DNA of 55,045 nt from assembly GCA_016779165.1 (NCBI GenBank), contig JADHOE010000004.1:1-55045 (forward strand), read 5' to 3'. Under the pieces are notes generated by a model. It did not search any database, was not told the DNA's origin, and saw nothing but the letters and a program-made list of their open reading frames with translations. Positions 38,266 to 47,985 of this stretch are shown here, piece after piece; the stretch's first letter is position 1; each line of letters starts with the position of its first letter. The position numbers were made by a program, and so were the translations under genes. Source of the stretch: Candidatus Margulisiibacteriota bacterium. GTDB lineage: Bacteria; Margulisbacteria; Marinamargulisbacteria; UBA817.

Positions 38266-39579
38266 ATGTTTTCCCCAAAACTATTAATAATCGACGACGA
38301 CGAAACCATATTATTTTCGTTTAAAAGTTTCTTGAATGAACATAAGTTTAGCCTTGAGTTTTCTAAAAATGGAAAAGATGGGCTGGAAAAATTATCATCG
38401 TTTCAACCAAACTTGGTTATCGCCGACTATAAAATGCCTGAAATGACTGGCCTTGAATTTATCAAGGCATCCAAAATTTTACATCCCAACACACCAGTTA
38501 TTATAATGAGCGCATTTGGCGACTCTAATACCAAGCGAGTTTTCTTAGATGAAGGTGCATTTGAGTACATAGAAAAGCCATTTGATATTGAATCGGTGTT
38601 GAATTCAATTTCATTAGCACTTGAGTCTTCGCCATTATTCATGGCGAATGAACCAACCCAATACATTGGTGAATCCACCATTATCAAATCCGTTTTCGAT
38701 CAAATTGATAAAGCTAAAAATACCACCATTACCATGTTAATTGAAGGTGAAAGTGGTACAGGAAAAGACTTAATCGCAAATTATATCCATAATAATAGCC
38801 CTGTAGCCAATGGCCCTTTTATTAGCATTAATTGTGCTGCTATACCGGAAAGTCTTATTGAGTCTGAGTTATTTGGGTATGAAAAAGGAGCCTTTACGGG
38901 TGCCGATGAGCAAAAGATTGGAAAGTTTGAACACGCAAAAAATGGCACTATATTTTTGGATGAAATTGGAGAATTGCCACTATCCATTCAAGCAAAGTTG
39001 CTTCGAATTCTTCAAAATAAAACCATTGAACGAATTGGAGGAGCAAACTCAATTGCGTCAAATGCTCGAATCATAGCCGCAACCAACAAAAACCTGAGGC
39101 AAATGGTTGCAGACAAAGACTTTCGAGAGGATTTGTATTACCGACTGACATCGTTTCCACTGCATATTCCGGCATTAAGAAATAGAGAAAATGATATTAC
39201 ACTCATTGCTGACTATTTGCTTCAGCGTTTTTGCACAGAATTTAATAAGAAAAAGAAGTCATTTTCAGACACGGGGCTTAAAGCTCTAAAAAAATATCAT
39301 TGGCCTGGAAACATTAGAGAGCTTCAAAACATTATATCTCGAATTGTTTTACTTGAATCAAGCAATATTATCCACGCAGAGCATATTTTACCATATTTCC
39401 CAAAAACTGAATCCATTGAGACTGAAAATGATATTTCATTTATTACTCAATACACTGAGAAAGAGTTACTTAAACTTCACGCACAAGAAACATTTAAACT
39501 TTGCCATTACAATAAGTCTGATGCAGCAAAGCGCCTTGGGATAAATTACCGAACATTAATTAAACGACTAGAAAGCTAA
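38266..39579 (+). CDS. Sigma-54-dependent response regulator (NtrC family)
   Basis: Activator of RpoN promoters, 437 residues. The receiver domain (1-120) has the acidic pocket IIDDDE at 8-13, phospho-acceptor Asp54 in VIADYKMPEM, and IEKPF with the conserved Lys. The AAA+ domain carries IEGESGTGKDLIANYIH (Walker A), GYEKGAFTGADEQKIG (sigma-54 contact loop), GTIFLDEIGELP (Walker B) and the arginine finger region REDLYYRL. The Fis-type helix-turn-helix at the C-terminus is NKSDAAKRLGINYRTLIKRL. No histidine kinase is adjacent, so it is an orphan here. AAGGGG sits just before the ATG at 38266. Confidence 0.93.
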   Translation: MFSPKLLIIDDDETILFSFKSFLNEHKFSLEFSKNGKDGLEKLSSFQPNLVIADYKMPEMTGLEFIKASKILHPNTPVIIMSAFGDSNTKRVFLDEGAFEYIEKPFDIESVLNSISLALESSPLFMANEPTQYIGESTIIKSVFDQIDKAKNTTITMLIEGESGTGKDLIANYIHNNSPVANGPFISINCAAIPESLIESELFGYEKGAFTGADEQKIGKFEHAKNGTIFLDEIGELPLSIQAKLLRILQNKTIERIGGANSIASNARIIAATNKNLRQMVADKDFREDLYYRLTSFPLHIPALRNRENDITLIADYLLQRFCTEFNKKKKSFSDTGLKALKKYHWPGNIRELQNIISRIVLLESSNIIHAEHILPYFPKTESIETENDISFITQYTEKELLKLHAQETFKLCHYNKSDAAKRLGINYRTLIKRLES

Positions 39580-40916
39580 GGTTGTTGGCATATTTTTGGC
39601 CCATTTTCATCCTTACAGTCATAATCTTTGTATGTTTCTGCACCCGAGAAAACAATCCCATCAAAACCGGAATTAACCACATTATCAATCAACTGCTTCA
39701 TATTTGACTTCCAATCCTTTCGCCAATACTTAACATAATGGTCTTTGTCATGCCCCTCAATTCTAGAGTTATCAGCAATTGTTTTGCTTACCCCAATATC
39801 CACCCAGTCTGGTTCGAGTTCAGGGTTACTGTTCCAATCCATATTCCAAAATGGTCCGTTTTCCCAAACTTTTGATACATCAATCATGGCATACACCAAA
39901 CGGTTTATTCCATTAGATTTTTCTTTTAACGACGTAATTTTTTGCAATGACCATGGCGATAGTTCACTTGTATAGCTGTTTTTAGACACTGGTAAAACGA
40001 TAAGATCATAGCTGGAACCTTGAATTGTTAAAATTTCAGGTTCATCAAGGGCGTAAGATCCATCATATAAGGCAAAGTTCTGTACCTCGCTAATGACGTT
40101 TACTGACAATTCAGGGTCATTATTTGGTATATTATTCAGTACTTCGACATCAAATAATTTAGACTCCTCCACTGGATCAATGAAATGTACAACACCATCA
40201 ACCGGAGATACCTCATTTATAAGAGGGCTGGTCAGAGTTAAATAATCAATGGCAAATATTTTTTTCTCACTTTTTAATTCATCCAACATCCAATCATTTG
40301 CATTTTTTATGTTGTCCATTTGAGCGTGTTGATTTTTAGAAAATTGATACTCAAATAAAAAAACAGCATCAATTTCATTCATTAACTCTCCCTTTAGCGC
40401 TTTCTCACCGTTATCAAATTGGTCATAGAAAACATCTAAATGGGTTGTTCCAACGGCAAACTCAAGTGCGTTTGATTTTGATTTTGCATATTCAATTAAC
40501 TCTAGCAATAATTGATGCATGCCATCTTGGTAATTTAATGTTTTGATTTTAACACTAATGCCTGGCTTGTTTACATTCTCCTCATCAAATCTCGTATAAA
40601 AAAAAGTATAGTAATAGTTTTTATCTACCATCAGGTTAGACTCATCTAAGAATGAATGTTGACCAGGATGAAATCCACCAAAATGGTTCTTGCCATCATA
40701 TAAACTTCTAGGTAACTCTATTTCGGATCGAATAATATTCACCATATTTACTTCACTAGAAAACTTAAATGATAAACGTGCGTAATCGACACTGGTATAT
40801 TGCTGAGTCAGTGTAACGGCGGGAACATTAGATACCGCCTTAGTCGGTGGCTCCAGGTATTTTTTTGAACAAGATACCATTAAAAAAATGGGAAGTATTA
40901 ATAATAGTTTGAACAT
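39576..40916 (-). CDS. Lipoprotein with permuted GH114-like glycosidase domain
   Basis: Protein of 446 residues beginning MFKLLLILPIFLMVSCSKK, a lipoprotein signal with lipobox VSC. A fibronectin-III-like region follows (about 25-110: VDYARLSFKFSSEVNMVNII). The rest resembles the GH114/TM1410 (endo-alpha-1,4-polygalactosaminidase) barrel in two pieces. First comes LLELIEYAKSKSNALEFAVG and IDAVFLFEYQF, then YDLIVLPVS, VYAMIDVSKVWE, NMDWNSNP and finally WRKDWKSNMKQLIDNVVNSG with FDGIVFSG. In ordinary members the WK...GFDG half comes first, so the order looks circularly permuted. The Asp expected after GFDGxxLD is Ser-Gly here. Four bases overlap the convergent regulator gene. Confidence 0.6.
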   Translation of the reverse strand: MFKLLLILPIFLMVSCSKKYLEPPTKAVSNVPAVTLTQQYTSVDYARLSFKFSSEVNMVNIIRSEIELPRSLYDGKNHFGGFHPGQHSFLDESNLMVDKNYYYTFFYTRFDEENVNKPGISVKIKTLNYQDGMHQLLLELIEYAKSKSNALEFAVGTTHLDVFYDQFDNGEKALKGELMNEIDAVFLFEYQFSKNQHAQMDNIKNANDWMLDELKSEKKIFAIDYLTLTSPLINEVSPVDGVVHFIDPVEESKLFDVEVLNNIPNNDPELSVNVISEVQNFALYDGSYALDEPEILTIQGSSYDLIVLPVSKNSYTSELSPWSLQKITSLKEKSNGINRLVYAMIDVSKVWENGPFWNMDWNSNPELEPDWVDIGVSKTIADNSRIEGHDKDHYVKYWRKDWKSNMKQLIDNVVNSGFDGIVFSGAETYKDYDCKDENGPKICQQP

Positions 40917-41025
40917 TGCTTTGTTATTCCCTATTTTTGTAGGGTTGAAACACACTTTTTTATAATTTAAACTGAAATTCTTTTACAGAGTTATTCGATA
41001 TTCATTAAACATTGGGAGGGACGTA

Positions 41026-41896: not shown

Positions 41897-42763
41897 ATGT
41901 TAAATAAGTTTAACGTAAAAAAACGATTAAGAGACGCGGTGATTGACATGTTTAGCCATGGCAATGATCCAATGAAACATACATTTTCATTTAAAGGCGA
42001 CCCGGGCCTTTTTGGTCCCTCATCCGTGACATGGCGAATTATTAGCGATGTTTCTGGGTTTATGGGGGGAATACGTGCATTATATTTGCAGGCTGCACAT
42101 CCGGAAGTTGTCGCAGGGGTTTACCAGCATTCAAATTACAGAGAAGATCCATTTGGTCGATTATCCCGAACAGGGGACTATGTCGCCGTCACGGCCTTTG
42201 GGGCAACCCCAGAGGTTACCAAAATGATAGACCACGTCAAACGAATGCACCATAAAGTAACTGGCATATCCGCACGAAATAAACCCTATGCTGGAAACGA
42301 TCCAGCGTTGGCGTCCTGGGTGCATAATTCGTTGGTGGATTCCTTTTTAGTGGCCTACCAGCTATTTGGGGATCAGCCATTATCCAAGCAAGATGCCGAT
42401 GCATTTGTTAACGAGCAAACAACTATTGGTCGATTAATGGGTGCAAATGAGTTGCCACCCACGGCTAACGACTTAACCCATTGGATTAACAACCACCCGA
42501 ATATGGCATCAACAATTGAGACAGCGTCTGTTTTAAAATTTCTAAATCACCCACCCCTTCCACCAACCGTTCGCTTAGGGTATTCACTTCTAAAAGATGC
42601 TGCCATTGGCTCATTTCACTCAAAGGTTCAAGCCATTATTAATCATCACCCTACCCGACTTTGGAAAGCAAAAGGTCATTTTTTCATCACCTTAATGCGA
42701 AAATCATTGGGGTTTTCTCCAGCAAGAGATATCGCATTACAGCGGATAGCAATGACGCCATAA
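41897..42763 (+). CDS. DUF2236 / MpaB-like oxygenase
   Basis: Protein of 288 residues with the DUF2236 pattern shared with the heme protein MpaB and latex-clearing oxygenase. It has GLFGPSSVTWRIISDVSGFM, IRALYLQAAHPEVVAGVYQH, DPFGRLSRTGDYVAVTAFG (the conserved R-T pattern), HVKRMHHKVTGI and ALASWVHNSLVDSFLVAY. The AAHP and MHHKV histidines are typical of the family. Substrate unknown. It is followed after seven bases by the nucleosidase-glycosyltransferase fusion, so the two are likely co-transcribed. Confidence 0.82.
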   Translation: MLNKFNVKKRLRDAVIDMFSHGNDPMKHTFSFKGDPGLFGPSSVTWRIISDVSGFMGGIRALYLQAAHPEVVAGVYQHSNYREDPFGRLSRTGDYVAVTAFGATPEVTKMIDHVKRMHHKVTGISARNKPYAGNDPALASWVHNSLVDSFLVAYQLFGDQPLSKQDADAFVNEQTTIGRLMGANELPPTANDLTHWINNHPNMASTIETASVLKFLNHPPLPPTVRLGYSLLKDAAIGSFHSKVQAIINHHPTRLWKAKGHFFITLMRKSLGFSPARDIALQRIAMTP

Positions 42764-42770
42764 TCCATCG

Positions 42771-44156
42771 ATGATTCTAATATGCGTTGCACTTGAAAAA
42801 GAAATTCCCAAGGAATTCAAAGAACAGTACCCCAATCATTGGTTCAGGTTATCGGGATTAAAATCGGGGCAGATCAATCAGATTAAGCACCAAGCAGTTA
42901 TTGTAGTTGTTACTGGTGTCGGCCAAAATGCACAGGATTCATTACGTTGGCTTCTTCAACATATTACGCCCAAAGAAATCATCAATATTGGGACTGCAGG
43001 ATCAACCACATTATCAAAACACCATTGGGTGATGTTGACCCAAGTCACTCATGAAATGACAACATTTCATTGCCATTACCAAACATCACTACCCATTCCC
43101 TACCATCAGTTTCCCCAAGCAGAAGGACGAACTGTGTCATCAATTTCTTATGCTGCACAAGGGGGTGCAATTGATATGGAAGCGTTTTTTTTGGCGGCTG
43201 TGTCACACGATCAAGGCATTACGTTTACGTCATTTAAATACATTACAGATGCCAATAATACAAATACTGAGTCAGATTTTAATGCATCTTTAACCTGCTT
43301 TCATTCCGAATTTTTAACATTGCTATCCTATTGCTTTGAACCCAGTACTGGCATATCCGTAATTATTCCAACCTTTAATCGACACCAATCGCTAACACGT
43401 GCATTAAATTCGGTTTTAAACCAATCACACCCTGCACAAGAAGTGCTTGTTGTTGATGATGGGTCTAACCCTGCCGTAACCAGTCCATCCAATCATGTCA
43501 ATGTGATTGCATTAACTAAAAACCATGGGGTATCTTACGCTCGAAACGTTGGCATAGCAGCATCCAAAGCGCCATGGCTTTGTTTTTTAGATTCGGATGA
43601 TGAATGGTCAACAAATCATTTAGAAACATTAAACAACCACATAATAGAGCACCCGTTATGCCGTTGGGCACAAACAGATGAGCAATGGATTCGAAATGGT
43701 CGTCCATTTAACAAAAAAAAGTACCATCAAAAGCCAAACGGTTGGGCATTTGAGCCATCCCTTCATCGATGCCTCGTTTCCCCATCCGCGGTAATGGTCC
43801 ATCGCCATTTATTCGATTGGTTTGGGACGTTTAATGAAGACTTACCCGCGTGCGAAGATTACGATTTATGGCTTCGACTGCTTCGATTTTTACCTGTAGG
43901 ATTTGCAAATGAAGTAACAATGACAAAATATGGTGGTCACTCTGATCAGTTATCGTCCATGCCGCTACTGGATAAATACCGTGTAAGAGTCTTGATTGCC
44001 CTTCACAGGGATGAACATGTTCCTCAACGTCGTAAACAAATTGAAACCATGCTTCAGTTTAAATTAAAGATATTATTGGATGGCGCAACCAAACGATATC
44101 AAACAACTGAAGTCGCAGAATACACGAAAATTATGCACGAAATTCAGCATCAATGA
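42771..44156 (+). CDS. Fusion of a nucleosidase-like domain and a GT2 glycosyltransferase
   Basis: Protein of 461 residues in two domains. Residues 1-190 have the purine-nucleosidase/phosphorylase fold: LICVALEKEIPKEF (Glu11 at the position of MTA/SAH nucleosidase Glu12), VVTGVGQNAQ, IINIGTAGS, IDMEAFFLA (Met136-Glu137, ribose contact) and KYITDANN (Asp160 like catalytic Asp197). Residues 195-461 form a GT-A glycosyltransferase 2 domain with ISVIIPTFNRHQSLTRAL, LVVDDGS (227-232), CFLDSDDEW, and a late ACEDYDLWLRLLR plus YGGHSDQLS. The first domain is about 40 residues shorter than stand-alone nucleosidases. It follows the MpaB-like gene by seven bases. Its stop abuts the stop of the convergent gene. 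Confidence 0.75.
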   Translation: MILICVALEKEIPKEFKEQYPNHWFRLSGLKSGQINQIKHQAVIVVVTGVGQNAQDSLRWLLQHITPKEIINIGTAGSTTLSKHHWVMLTQVTHEMTTFHCHYQTSLPIPYHQFPQAEGRTVSSISYAAQGGAIDMEAFFLAAVSHDQGITFTSFKYITDANNTNTESDFNASLTCFHSEFLTLLSYCFEPSTGISVIIPTFNRHQSLTRALNSVLNQSHPAQEVLVVDDGSNPAVTSPSNHVNVIALTKNHGVSYARNVGIAASKAPWLCFLDSDDEWSTNHLETLNNHIIEHPLCRWAQTDEQWIRNGRPFNKKKYHQKPNGWAFEPSLHRCLVSPSAVMVHRHLFDWFGTFNEDLPACEDYDLWLRLLRFLPVGFANEVTMTKYGGHSDQLSSMPLLDKYRVRVLIALHRDEHVPQRRKQIETMLQFKLKILLDGATKRYQTTEVAEYTKIMHEIQHQ

Positions 44157-44534
44157 TTACCCCAATGTAAGAACAATTGGCAATAAATACGCAAAAAATA
44201 AACCAATGGCATAAATAATAACACTAATCGTCCAAATCGTTTGGCTCCAATCTTTTGTTGAGTTGCACGTGGCGGCACTGTCCGGTTGGCATATTCCTTG
44301 TTGGGTGGAGAGAGCTAGTAATTTTGAGATCAACAAAAGTGCCCCTGCAAAAATAAACAGCCAAACTTTATGTTTTGATAACCAAATAAGCTGAGGGAAC
44401 ACTGATGTTAGGCTAGCAACGGCAGCACCCGCGCCAATCGCCACAAGCAATGCTGGAAGTGCGCAACAAAACAACGTAGAAGTGGACGCAAATAGGCTCA
44501 AAAAAGGGGTGATTTTTTTAAAAAAAGATGGCAT
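44157..44534 (-). CDS. MerT-like small membrane protein
   Basis: Protein of 125 residues with three or four hydrophobic helices. Near the N-terminus LFASTSTLFCCALPALLVAIG has the vicinal Cys-Cys in a helix that marks mercuric-transport-like (MerT) proteins. A loop with ICQPDSAATC supplies two more Cys, as in MerT. Its context, directly after an HMA-domain protein (TAATG overlap), supports metal transport. Since no merA is present, the metal may be something other than mercury. Last gene of a three-gene unit. Confidence 0.6.
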   Translation of the reverse strand: MPSFFKKITPFLSLFASTSTLFCCALPALLVAIGAGAAVASLTSVFPQLIWLSKHKVWLFIFAGALLLISKLLALSTQQGICQPDSAATCNSTKDWSQTIWTISVIIYAIGLFFAYLLPIVLTLG

Positions 44535-44965
44535 TACTTTGTTGTTGCCTTGCTTTTATTGTTGCGCGTAATGCGGCCGACGGTATAGCCAGAATCTGTT
44601 ATTATGGTTTTAATATCGTTGTCTTGAATATGTTGATCTACCTTCAGATTCAGCCGAACACTTGATGCATCTAAGTTGACATGGACATCATCAATTGCTG
44701 GGTGTCGCTCAAATGATTTTTGAATCCCATGGGCGCAAAATGAGCAGACCATGCCTGTGACTTCAATATCAACATCATACGTTTTTGTCGAATTGACAAC
44801 AGGTCCAGCTTCCTTAACATTTGAATGAAGCTTTGCCTTCTTTTTTGTATGAGAGTGTTGCTCCATGGCATGAGTCTGGGTTGGTGGCGTTGGGTTTGTT
44901 TCCATTGCCGTAGCATTTCCGCTTAACAGCCCAATAATGATAGCTATTGCAAATAAATAATTCAT
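44534..44965 (-). CDS. Secreted HMA-domain metal-binding protein (MerP-like)
   Basis: Protein of 143 residues with signal peptide MNYLFAIAIIIGLLSGNATA. A His/Lys-rich linker (HAMEQHSHTKKKAKLHS) precedes a heavy-metal-associated domain of about 70 residues (VDIEVTGMVCSFCAHGIQK, metal ligands in CSFC). Its ferredoxin-like fold continues HVNLDASSVRLNLKV and IITDSGYTVGRI. MerP and CopZ relatives bind one soft metal ion at CxxC; the His-rich linker may add sites. AAAAGGAG lies about seven bases before the ATG. It sits between the barrel-like gene and the MerT-like gene. Confidence 0.8.
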   Translation of the reverse strand: MNYLFAIAIIIGLLSGNATAMETNPTPPTQTHAMEQHSHTKKKAKLHSNVKEAGPVVNSTKTYDVDIEVTGMVCSFCAHGIQKSFERHPAIDDVHVNLDASSVRLNLKVDQHIQDNDIKTIITDSGYTVGRITRNNKSKATTK

Positions 44966-44979
44966 TGATTAACTCCTTT

Positions 44980-45621
44980 TTAAAAATGTATCATGCTGGT
45001 TATTAAAAAATCGTTCCTTAAGTTGGTACCAAATTCAACTAAGATATTGCCCTTAAAAAGGCGAATAACTGGCATCACACTTGCAGTTGATGTACGATAA
45101 TCGTTGTAGCTCGTCAACTGAAGCATGAGCCAAGTATGAATATCATCATAATCACCAATATATGGGGCTATTCCAAGCCTAATTTCGCCCATTTTTACGT
45201 TATGGATTGTGGTATTCGAAAAAGGACCACTAAATAGCTCATGGTAATTGGCCATAAATAAATACCGACGGGTTTCCCAATCAAATTGACCACCAAGGTG
45301 CATAATCATTGGTTGAGTTTTTAATAAATGATCAACCCCAATTCCAAAAAAACCATAAATATTTGATTGAACGCCTACTCCGTTGAATCGTTTTATTAGA
45401 TGGTTAGATTGAACCATTAGCCAGTGATCATACCGAGTCGTAATTTCATGAACACCAACTGATTGGTGATTGGATATGCTTACGTGTGCCTTGCTATGTT
45501 GGACATTTGATCCTAACCTAACGCTAAACACCCGTCCACCTTTCCAAATTACTGGGTGTGCCATGGCTTGGACATTAATCATAACACCCAAAAGAAATGT
45601 ATAAAAGCAGGTGTACTTCAC
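44980..45621 (-). CDS. Predicted outer-membrane protein heading the metal operon
   Basis: Protein of 213 residues, no family recognised. Signal peptide KYTCFYTFLLGVMINVQAMA, then HPVIWKGGRVFSVRLGSN. The body alternates polar and aromatic residues (GVGVQSNIYGFFGIGVDHL, RRYLFMANYHELFSGPF, GEIRLGIAPYIGDYDD) and it ends FLITSMIHF, with terminal Phe, as in outer-membrane barrels. I take GTG 45621 because TATAGT lies five bases before it; a TTG one codon upstream and an ATG at 45582 are alternatives. The HMA gene follows after 14 bases. An outer-membrane partner for metal passage is a reasonable guess from context only. Confidence 0.55.
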   Translation of the reverse strand: MKYTCFYTFLLGVMINVQAMAHPVIWKGGRVFSVRLGSNVQHSKAHVSISNHQSVGVHEITTRYDHWLMVQSNHLIKRFNGVGVQSNIYGFFGIGVDHLLKTQPMIMHLGGQFDWETRRYLFMANYHELFSGPFSNTTIHNVKMGEIRLGIAPYIGDYDDIHTWLMLQLTSYNDYRTSTASVMPVIRLFKGNILVEFGTNLRNDFLITSMIHF

Positions 45622-45626
45622 CAAAA

Positions 45627-45699: not shown

Positions 45700-46614
45700 A
45701 TGATGATGTTAAGTTCAGCAGTAGACGCGTTTAATAATGCCTACGGGTCTTGGCAAATGGATAGTGTTTCTGACACCTTATTAAACAGTATTCAATCCCA
45801 CGGCATTTTAGTGCCAATTTCATGTATTAAAACAGACGATTCCCTTACCATTATCGACGGATTCAAGCGGTTTCGTGCAGCTAAGCACCTTAAAATAACG
45901 CATATCCCCTATGCTGTTGTAACCACAGACCTGCCACCAGAAACCTTAATTTTTAACTTGCATCAATCTCAAGTATGTTCATCAGCAATGCACAAAATTC
46001 GTTTCCTTAGCGCGTTAAAATGTACCATCGATTCCGAACACATGAGCATGGTTGGCTTGCCCTATTACTCACACATTAAAAAAGATATTGCTAAGATTAC
46101 TGCTTTACCCGAATCAGCACAGTTATTTTTGCATCAAAAAGGATTTTCTTTAAAAGAAATGGTGAACCTTATCCACCATTCACCAGATGTGTTTCTTACT
46201 GTATTGGCATCTGATCCCTTTTTTAATTTTAGTAAACGCACATTGGATCATGTGGTATTGAGCATTATCAATTTAATGAAACGCCATCAATTAACCATTC
46301 AACAGATTTTTAGCCAAACCCAATACTCTGAGATTATGAACAAAGACATAACCGCATCCCAACGGTTGACTCAATGGGTTGCATGCATCAACCAATGTGA
46401 AAACCCCACCCTTTTGGCTCACCAAAGCAGCATACATGATGCCTTGAACAAGATTGAACTCCCAGCGAAACTTACCTTTGATACCACATTGGAACATGCG
46501 GGAGTTACCATTCAAACCACCATCAACTCCGAAAAAGAATTAAGCGATTTTACCAGTGCTTTATCAAACACAAGATTAAAGAAACAGTTGTTGCACGCAG
46601 TATCATTAACATGA
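45700..46614 (+). CDS. ParB-like (ParB/sulfiredoxin fold) protein
   Basis: Protein of 304 residues. The N-terminal 90 residues resemble a ParB nuclease/CTPase domain: LLNSIQSHGILVPISCIK, then LTIIDGFKRFRAAKHLKIT (the GxxRxxA motif) and HIPYAVVTTDLPPE. The remaining 210 residues are helical and include KITALPESAQLFLHQKGFSL, which could be the helix-turn-helix region of a ParB-like protein. No parA, origin or parS site is seen. The stop overlaps the start of the radical SAM gene by four bases (ATGA), so the two proteins are translationally coupled and probably work together. Three consecutive ATG codons begin the gene; the first is used here. Confidence 0.7.
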   Translation: MMMLSSAVDAFNNAYGSWQMDSVSDTLLNSIQSHGILVPISCIKTDDSLTIIDGFKRFRAAKHLKITHIPYAVVTTDLPPETLIFNLHQSQVCSSAMHKIRFLSALKCTIDSEHMSMVGLPYYSHIKKDIAKITALPESAQLFLHQKGFSLKEMVNLIHHSPDVFLTVLASDPFFNFSKRTLDHVVLSIINLMKRHQLTIQQIFSQTQYSEIMNKDITASQRLTQWVACINQCENPTLLAHQSSIHDALNKIELPAKLTFDTTLEHAGVTIQTTINSEKELSDFTSALSNTRLKKQLLHAVSLT

Positions 46615-47636
46615 CAAACTCATACTACAGAGACGGTAAAAAAAAGGTTGACTTTGTTCCCTATAAAGGGGAAAAAATGGACACATGTGCCACCATTCAC
46701 GATGAATATGTATGTTGCAATGTCAAAGTATTAAAGTCAGTTAGCAATTGCCCATTTGATTGCAGTTATTGTTTTTTGCAAAACTACCTAACCAACCCTC
46801 AATTAGAGGTTGTGGATGACATTACCCGATTAATGCAAGAAATTGAAATCAAAACAACCGCTCAGCCTTGGCGTTTTTTTAGAATCGGCACTTGGGAATT
46901 GGGCGACTCACTGGCCTTAGAAGAACAAACGGGTCAAGCAAAACAACTCATTGAACACTTTAAAGATATTCCAAATGCCGTGTTGGAGTTAAAAACAAAG
47001 TCCAATGTGGTGGACCCAATATTAGATTGTGTTCATCACCAAAAAACCGTTGTATCCTGGTCAATGAATACCCCTTTCATTATTGATACCGAAGAACATA
47101 AGACCGCATCGTTTGATGAACGAATAACTGCAATAAAAAAAGTAGTGGATGCCGGGTACTTGGTTGGGCTTCATTTTGACCCAATGATTCTGTACTCAGA
47201 CTGGAAGCAAGATTATCTTAAATGCCTGGATGCATGTCGAAATGTATTACCGCCAGAACATGTTGCTTGGATATCCATTGGGTCACTGCGGTTTAACCCA
47301 GAACAAAAACGTTTGATTGAAAATAACTTTCGTGGCTCAGACATCACCTGCCAGGAAATGGTCAAAGGGTCTGATAATAAAATGCGGTATGTAAAGCCAA
47401 TGCGTATTCAAATGTACCAGCACATGATGGCCAATATTCGACGCCTTTGGGGGGAAAATGCATTTGTTTACTTATGCATGGAGCGTTGGGATATCTGGGA
47501 TAAAGTCATGGATATCCAACCCAGAAGCATCGGTGAGCTGGATTTCATGTTTGCAGATTATTTTCATACAACATTTCCTACCATAAACCCACAAATTCCA
47601 AACATCGATCTTTATAAAAAATATCAGTCAACATAA
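46611..47636 (+). CDS. Spore-photoproduct-lyase-family radical SAM enzyme
   Basis: Protein of 341 residues related to SplB, which repairs UV-made thymine dimers of spores. The radical SAM cluster is CPFDCSYC (Cys47, 51, 54; CxxxCxxC). Family landmarks include FFRIGTWELGDSLALE, VLELKTKSNVVDPIL, VVSWSMNTPFIIDTEEHKTA, SFDERITAIKKVVDAGYLVG, LHFDPMILYSDWKQDYL and VYLCMERWDIWDKVM. Nothing here suggests sporulation, so it represents the SPL-like group of non-sporeformers, whose substrate is largely unstudied. Overlaps the ParB-like gene by four bases. A terminator-like hairpin follows the stop. Confidence 0.82.
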   Translation: MTNSYYRDGKKKVDFVPYKGEKMDTCATIHDEYVCCNVKVLKSVSNCPFDCSYCFLQNYLTNPQLEVVDDITRLMQEIEIKTTAQPWRFFRIGTWELGDSLALEEQTGQAKQLIEHFKDIPNAVLELKTKSNVVDPILDCVHHQKTVVSWSMNTPFIIDTEEHKTASFDERITAIKKVVDAGYLVGLHFDPMILYSDWKQDYLKCLDACRNVLPPEHVAWISIGSLRFNPEQKRLIENNFRGSDITCQEMVKGSDNKMRYVKPMRIQMYQHMMANIRRLWGENAFVYLCMERWDIWDKVMDIQPRSIGELDFMFADYFHTTFPTINPQIPNIDLYKKYQST

Positions 47637-47682: not shown

Positions 47683-47985
47683 TTACCGGACGTATTTAAA
47701 GATATCGTTTAATAACTTTTCGTAGGTTTCATCGCGCTTATCTTGGTTGGTTGAAATAAGCCCCTTTGACATTGAATCTTGCATGTGGGTCTTAATAAGC
47801 ATTTTCATTACCATTCGAAGAGCTTCATAGCTTGCTGTAATTTGAATCATAATATCCTCTACGGATCGATCATCATCAACCATTCCGGATATCCCACGAA
47901 TTCGACCTTCAATGCGTTTTAATTTATCGATTAGGCTTTTTTTATCTTCTTTTGTTATGGTGTCCGTCATGTATGCTAGTGTCAT
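47683..47985 (-). CDS. CsoR/RcnR/FrmR-family regulator lacking the cysteine ligands
   Basis: All-helical DNA-binding protein of 100 residues (DUF156). DKLKRIEGRIRGISGMVDDD is the family's signature helix, followed by DIMIQITASYEALRMVM and LIKTHMQDSM. In copper-sensing CsoR the ligands are Cys36, His61 and Cys65. Here the first Cys is Val42, His67 is kept, and the last Cys is Ser71, so a thiol-based metal or formaldehyde response is unlikely. The ATG at 47985 has AGGAG seven bases upstream. It sits between the SPL gene (convergent) and a glycosyltransferase gene. It may regulate the metal operon at 44-45.6 kb, but no operator is evident. Confidence 0.85.
   Translation of the reverse strand: MTLAYMTDTITKEDKKSLIDKLKRIEGRIRGISGMVDDDRSVEDIMIQITASYEALRMVMKMLIKTHMQDSMSKGLISTNQDKRDETYEKLLNDIFKYVR

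Follow-up and report, generated by a model that had tools for sequence, protein, structure and literature searches.

A nucleosidase–glycosyltransferase fusion and its recurrent SPL-like radical SAM neighbours: a possible route to a SAM-derived glycosylated group

The window, by which we mean the whole stretch of DNA analysed (55,045 nucleotides; contig JADHOE010000004.1 of assembly GCA_016779165.1, Candidatus Margulisiibacteriota), contains an open reading frame that joins a nucleosidase domain to a family 2 glycosyltransferase (GT) domain, flanked upstream by an MpaB-like gene and followed downstream by genes for a ParB-like protein and a radical SAM protein resembling spore photoproduct lyase (SPL). 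The features are as follows.

41897–42763, plus strand: MpaB/Lcp-family gene (160.7 bits), ending 7 bases upstream of the fusion
42771–44156, plus strand: nucleosidase–GT2 fusion, 461 codons, 461 amino acids
42771–43340, plus strand: nucleosidase domain (residues 1–190) with the MTAN/PNP_UDP_1 fold, from PF01048, residue conservation and structure match
43341–44156, plus strand: GT2 (GT-A) domain (about residues 191–461) and stop codon, from PF00535, structure matches and conserved motifs
45700–46614, plus strand: ParB-like protein (ParB/Srx N domain and a helical part), directly upstream of the SPL-like gene
46611–47636, plus strand: SPL-like radical SAM enzyme (PF20903, 100.1 bits; CxxxCxxC at C47/C51/C54), overlapping the ParB-like gene by 4 bp

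Both halves of the fusion exceed their Pfam cut-offs on the same chain. PNP_UDP_1 (PF01048) scores 40.8 bits against a cut-off of 25.1, which places the N-terminal half in that superfamily, and Glycos_transf_2 (PF00535) scores 91.3 bits against 23.3, with the match beginning at residue 196. In single-sequence stretches that are weak by themselves, the M-E pair and the D of MTAN chains are matched by Met136-Glu137 and Asp160, and a profile of the fusion family finds MTAN chain 1jys with an E-value of 2.6e-14. These three residues are invariant in all ten fused rows of our alignment A1. Glu11 is E in all eight fused rows that extend to its site and was placed by position and conservation only, whereas Met136-Glu137 and Asp160 were aligned to MTAN chains. 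We take the Glu, the Met-Glu ribose pair and the Asp to have the roles of the MTAN catalytic and ribose residues, and all are in place in the predicted nucleosidase domain. In the second half, D230 and D274-S-D-D277 are conserved in 10/10 fused rows, and D363 and H390 in the nine that extend to those sites; Pfam score, GT-A fold and conserved acidic motif alike assign this half to GT2.

An AlphaFold model of the fusion, built with a 40-row alignment, has a mean pLDDT of 95.2 and a pTM of 0.91, with both domains confident. The nucleosidase half resembles the Chlamydia CT263 MTAN (4qas; Z 20.3, rmsd 2.8, 171 residues aligned) and the MTA/AdoHcy nucleosidase 1z5n (Z 18.9, rmsd 2.8, 181 aligned), and the GT half resembles the GT2 structure 5hea (Z 24.8, rmsd 3.2, 253 aligned). 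Matches to the GT half make up most of the VIA-align and Foldseek lists, where MTAN rows appear from rank 36; they further include 6p61, TarP, TarS and RmlT, the last three being enzymes with sugar or polyol acceptors. The first-pass annotation had described a chain that keeps the nucleosidase residues and carries a complete GT-A domain, and had proposed a model as a check of active-site geometry. Pfam, the alignments and the structure matches all agree with that description, and the model recovers the MTAN and GT2 folds.

Likeness to the MTANs extends to the fold and the catalytic residues (CT263, 1z5n), but the window's nucleosidase is fused to a GT2, its genome encodes a SAH hydrolase, and the domain falls below the three NCBIfam MTAN cut-offs (27.4 of 169, 23.6 of 161 and 18.7 of 73.8 bits). 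SAH hydrolase is found in 20 of the 27 genomes of the window's class, which weakens SAH detoxification as the main role of the fusion; the window's own genome (G000) is one of the 20, and clearance of SAH by the fusion is therefore unnecessary in G000. The futalosine hydrolase model TIGR03664 gives 17.9 bits against a cut-off of 124.7. Of the two menaquinone genes named earlier for the window, MenA passes TIGR00751, whereas the second has MenE models as its best matches with scores below their cut-offs. That the fusion acts on a nucleoside-containing intermediate or acceptor, as was guessed at first, is plausible.

To establish how far the fusion extends, we searched other genomes. A single fusion protein as query against genome contigs found no relative; a contig search with alignment A1 did, and its loci, the best 80 listed, form a set that resembles the query and not a total. 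The same genus and further families of the class have full-length fusions at 35–53% identity, so an assembly error as the origin of the fusion is ruled out. Ten of the 27 class genomes hold a fused homologue, nine of them full-length and one (G002) split over two contig ends; G006 has a GT-only gene, and in G012 the GT is cut by a contig end. Phylum genomes outside the class gave no fusion at E 1e-30, with GT-only homologues present. Among the best 80 loci listed, the fusion also occurs in Thermodesulfovibrionia/Thermodesulfovibrio (Nitrospirota) MAGs (L068, L069, L072) and in L070, a MAG labelled Deltaproteobacteria that the tree tool assigns to Myxococcota; L071 and L073 were taken as the same genomes as G013 and G008, whose contigs they match in length. 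The fusion is thus present in the class, in Nitrospirota and in Myxococcota, which refutes the possibility, raised at the outset, that it exists in this assembly only.

We then placed the GT domains on a 100-row tree from which duplicate loci, GT stretches shorter than 200 residues and scores below 170 bits, hence also G002, were left out. Thirteen fused GT domains fall in one clade of 15 with support of 100/99. The other two rows are L032, which a contig end cuts, and L078, whose split-gene look is uninformative about splitting because there are two N in its linker. The fused/unfused label changes three times on the tree as drawn, and two of these changes are L032 and L078. The simplest reading is one fusion event followed by vertical and perhaps lateral descent, and the fusion is real and old.

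The MpaB-like gene had initially been proposed as the partner of the fusion in a small pathway for nucleoside or glycan modification. Its position seven bases upstream was confirmed, the two genes share a strand, and both families are well matched. Poor conservation of the gene, however, largely refutes this reading, which we regard as very improbable. PF09995 is found in 4 of the 27 class genomes (G000, G006, G017 and G019), in the last three on a different contig from the GT, so that the gene stands beside the GT in the window only. The search gave no such match in G001, a genome of the same genus (89% complete), where adjacency cannot be read because the contig stops 233 bases upstream of the fusion. 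In the loci whose ORFs were searched by sequence, the window's own MpaB-like protein was matched and no other, and the family is absent from the neighbour families seen in at least four of 78 GT loci. We rejected the link on these grounds (rare in the class, on other contigs, absent from the other GT loci searched); the gene was perhaps acquired.

By contrast with that choice of partner, the ParB-like and SPL-like genes downstream, which the first-pass annotation did not name, recur near the GT in several phyla. In G001 the ParB-like gene starts 77 bases after the fusion and shares 4 bases with the SPL-like radical SAM gene that comes next. In the window the pair lies about 1.5 kb downstream, separated from the fusion by three minus-strand genes. 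These occupy 44157–45624 (minus strand) and encode a membrane-like protein, an HMA-domain protein and a third, unlabelled product; the block was probably inserted, or lost in G001, since only 77 bases lie between the genes in that genome. A metal-sensor gene (PF02583) lies at 47683–47985 of the window.

The recurrence was quantified in 76 non-redundant loci among the best 80 listed; this count omits the duplicates L071 and L073, which are kept in the 78-locus count, and L098 and L128, which have no GT ORF over the cut. A nucleosidase is fused to the GT in four loci and encoded within five genes of it in 33. Within the same distance we found an SPL-like gene in 17 loci, SDR in 15, ParB-like in eight and AKR in three; 31 of the 76 have none of the five. 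The query contained the nucleosidase domain, so the nucleosidase count may be inflated, a bias that does not touch the SPL-like, SDR and ParB-like counts. As a small control, 127 ORFs lying at a greater distance in these loci gave one ParB-like match and nothing else. Given roughly a single SPL-like gene per genome, and genomes with genes in the thousands, we estimate that chance would bring one to within five genes of the GT in well under one of the 76 loci. Neighbour families over 78 GT loci among the best 80 listed, two of them duplicates of class genomes, gave a similar series (nucleosidase-like 25, SPL-like 17, SDR 15, ParB-like 6). Response-regulator-like proteins occurred in 17 of these 78 loci at scattered positions, and DeoC-aldolase and HesB-like neighbours of the fusion in some families look like local synteny.

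SPL-like genes lie near the GT in Pseudomonadota, Nitrospirota, Bdellovibrionota, Fidelibacterota, Omnitrophota, the window's phylum and one MAG labelled Actinomycetes; named carriers include Methylomonas MAGs and the Solemya velum gill symbiont. In one Methylomonas MAG the GT and nucleosidase genes lie on L126, and the SPL-like and SDR genes on L230. Gene order differs between loci, as the following examples, all with genes overlapping or closely spaced, show (NS, nucleosidase; SPL, SPL-like).

L081: NS (cut)-GT-AKR-ParB-SPL
L078: NS-GT-ParB-SPL-AKR
L079: SPL-NS, divergent from AKR-GT
L105 (Solemya velum gill symbiont): GT-NS-SPL
L091: GT-NS-SPL-SDR

This variation argues for a functional connection and not mere shared descent, and the association of the GT with its partner genes is strong.

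The GT and SPL-like genes also occur together across genomes. Of 74 genomes of the phylum, 26 have a strong GT and 24 of these an SPL-like gene, against 15 of the 48 others (p 3.5e-7); a strong GT is defined by our own cut of 170 bits and GT2 matches below 152 bits were counted as other GT2s. Kinship was handled by counting families only, and at that level the figures are 11 of 12 families against 6 of 18 (p 0.0024). The two phylum genomes with the GT and no SPL-like match are G002 (94% complete) and G021 (55%). In 38 genomes drawn from the best 80 GT loci, 33 hold an SPL-like gene (35 matches) and five gave no match; in six of the 38 the gene was already known beside the GT.

The window's SPL-like protein shares the PF20903 family and the CxxxCxxC motif with spore photoproduct lyase, and this radical SAM motif is present in all 76 SPL-like proteins compared. 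It differs at the column aligned to the cysteine of chain 4fhc, which is visible there and which we take to be the SPL catalytic residue, C140. This column holds E in 50, Y in 14, Q in 10 and H in two of the 76, with no Cys; aligned to SPL crystal chains, the window's protein has E96 at this position. Its scores, 108.9 of 400 and 52.3 of 437.55 bits, lie below both SPL equivalog cut-offs. With a PF20903 score over the cut-off the protein is in the SPL family, yet it is not an SPL by the test of the catalytic cysteine, because that column is never C in the 76.

SPL itself acts on DNA, and its partner here also points that way. The ParB-like protein passes the domain cut-off of PF02195 (ParB/Srx N) at 27.8 against 26.3 bits, and its model (pLDDT 91.2) resembles ParB (7o0n; Z 9.5, rmsd 2.6, 89 aligned), KorB (8qa9; Z 9.1, rmsd 5.5, 187 aligned) and Noc. 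Because these are DNA-binding proteins, the partner does not suggest small-molecule chemistry. It precedes the SPL-like gene in 20 of 39 loci around SPL-like matches, directly in 19 and three genes away in one; in the further 19 loci with an SPL-like gene, only two (L287, L288) have a weak ParB-like match on a separate ORF nearby (L244, with no SPL-like ORF, was dropped, and the L284 contig has no SPL-like gene). The ParB-like gene is a common, not a constant, companion. One alternative, then, is nucleic-acid chemistry, in which the SPL-like and ParB-like proteins would alter or repair a base, the nucleosidase would take damaged nucleosides and the GT would glycosylate a base or nucleoside. 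We consider this improbable. The missing cysteine and the scores far below the SPL equivalog cut-offs speak against it, as do the sugar- and polyol-acceptor enzymes among the structure matches of the GT half. Among the best 80 listed, the loci titled Gammaproteobacteria have an SDR in many cases but nothing ParB-like up to five genes from the GT; the reductases, like the lost cysteine, are left unexplained by DNA chemistry.

Where the GT falls outside the fused clade, the nucleosidase has a gene of its own, often next to that for the GT or for the SPL-like enzyme. Seven genomes of the phylum that lie beyond the class (G048, G049, G052, G055, G057, G058, G065) each have a small, divergent PNP-family gene immediately upstream of the SPL-like gene and, as the ORFs were called, overlapping it. 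In G005 a PF01048 gene stands upstream of the ParB–SPL pair besides the genome's own fusion. Since the nucleosidase is fused to the GT within the class and adjoins the SPL-like gene outside it, it bridges the two.

These separate nucleosidases differ among themselves. At the M-E site of MTANs, the PNP-family genes of L219 and L277–L282 read F-E (four), I-E (one), L-E (one) and M-E (one), and six of the seven keep the Asp in T-D-L-P, which perhaps points to another specificity. The nucleosidases of L105, L088, L091, L097, L114, L138 and L142 are extended at the C-terminus by a region in which [HR]-F-[ST] is conserved. Those of L130, L144 and L146 lack this region, as, to our knowledge, does a plain MTAN.

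A simpler role for the nucleosidase would be disposal. It might only remove inhibitory 5'-deoxyadenosine (or MTA) arising from the SPL-like enzyme, while the GT acts elsewhere and is fused for regulation. MTANs cleave 5'-deoxyadenosine, and MTANs are the nearest structures of the nucleosidase half. In five genomes (G000, G001, G002, G017, G019; 71–94% complete) the fusion is moreover the only PF01048 match, so it may carry a general salvage role there. Such a role accounts for a nucleosidase beside the SPL-like gene, but not for one fused to a GT. In 23 loci counted among the best 80 listed, some with contigs that end nearby (e.g. L068), a nucleosidase that is fused to the GT or encoded at most five genes away from it comes with no SPL-like gene in the same span. 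Five other fusion genomes (G005, G008, G009, G013, G021) keep a second PF01048 protein, and some of the separate nucleosidases carry the extra C-terminal region. We therefore hold disposal to be rather unlikely as the whole explanation.

The reductases linked to the GT belong to PF00248 (AKR) and PF00106 (SDR). The AKR subfamily occurs in 13 genomes, all with an SPL-like gene and 12 with the GT, a co-occurrence that is partly circular because eight of the 13 supplied rows to the AKR model. A search at E 1e-50 gave no member of it in G000 or G001, the two genomes of the window's genus, and a weak SDR match within the window is FabI.

The fusion is itself a clue, because it ties a nucleosidase to a GT. 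Considering the conserved residues, folds, gene linkage and single fused clade described above, we propose that it supplies the depurination and glycosylation steps of a conserved pathway in which a ribose-derived glycosylated group is made from SAM, and we give this reading a probability of about 0.4. The SPL-like radical SAM enzyme would attach the 5'-deoxyadenosyl group of SAM to an acceptor, and the nucleosidase domain would then remove adenine, leaving a ribosyl group able to open to an aldehyde. In part of the genomes a reductase encoded nearby that uses NAD(P)H (AKR, or SDR in Gammaproteobacteria) would reduce the aldehyde, and the GT2 domain would add a sugar. Fusing the second and last steps would keep the intermediate on one protein. 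Each of the four reactions, the sequence in which they run and the acceptor are inferred, and we hold the chemistry with moderate confidence. The largest doubts concern SPL, which abstracts hydrogen and regenerates SAM rather than adenosylating (we know of no adenosylating member of its family), the ParB-like protein pointing to DNA, and the linked AKR not found in the window's genus.

The logic of adenosylation, depurination, reduction and glycosylation is, as our best reading by analogy, built like the side-chain pathway of the hopanoids. As PMC12583986 describes the C35 side chain, HpnH adds a 5'-deoxyadenosyl radical, adenine is then taken off by HpnG, ribosylhopane is turned into bacteriohopanetetrol by an enzyme not yet identified, and HpnI glycosylates. 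The kinds of enzyme in this route (HpnH, HpnG, reductase, HpnI) come in the same order: radical SAM, PNP family, polyol conversion and GT. The present system differs in that the radical SAM enzyme is SPL-like and the nucleosidase is fused to the GT, and the window's nucleosidase scores 22.6 against the 187.1 bits of the HpnG model (TIGR03468). No HpnH over the cut-off was found in the 27 class genomes, the window's own (71% complete) giving no match, and 14 control genomes likewise gave none, so this search had no positive control; a hopanoid product is unlikely in this class on account of that absence. Arsenosugar synthesis also uses radical SAM adenosylation, according to PMC12159101, and the TIGR04283 model of the GT that accompanies ArsS in that pathway scores 67.3 bits on the window's GT, below its cut-off of 182.

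A limited search of the open-licence literature found no description of this gene set. The pathway logic has precedents, while the fusion, the set and this branch of radical SAM enzymes appear to be undescribed. More tentatively than the role of the fusion itself, we suggest that an SPL-fold radical SAM enzyme may have been turned from DNA repair to the adenosylation of a small molecule or lipid, in a pathway to a SAM-derived glycosylated group apart from those of hopanoids and arsenosugars, spread over at least seven phyla and fused in three. If so, a glycosylated compound derived from SAM and so far undescribed, possibly a membrane lipid or a biomarker, would be produced by many bacteria, most of them uncultured, and the functions of the SPL family would extend beyond DNA repair. 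Among the named carriers, the Solemya velum gill symbiont and the Methylomonas MAGs indicate groups suited to a comparison of lipids or metabolites.

Two further observations concern neighbouring genes. At 39576–40955 (minus strand) the window encodes a probable secreted protein or lipoprotein, with a weak GH114 match only (E 0.31). In family f18 of the phylum (L222, L225, L226), the SPL-like gene is preceded by one that we take to be homoserine O-acetyltransferase-like and by another for a small protein of about 86 amino acids; these genomes are without a strong GT match and present a different setting for the SPL-like radical SAM family.
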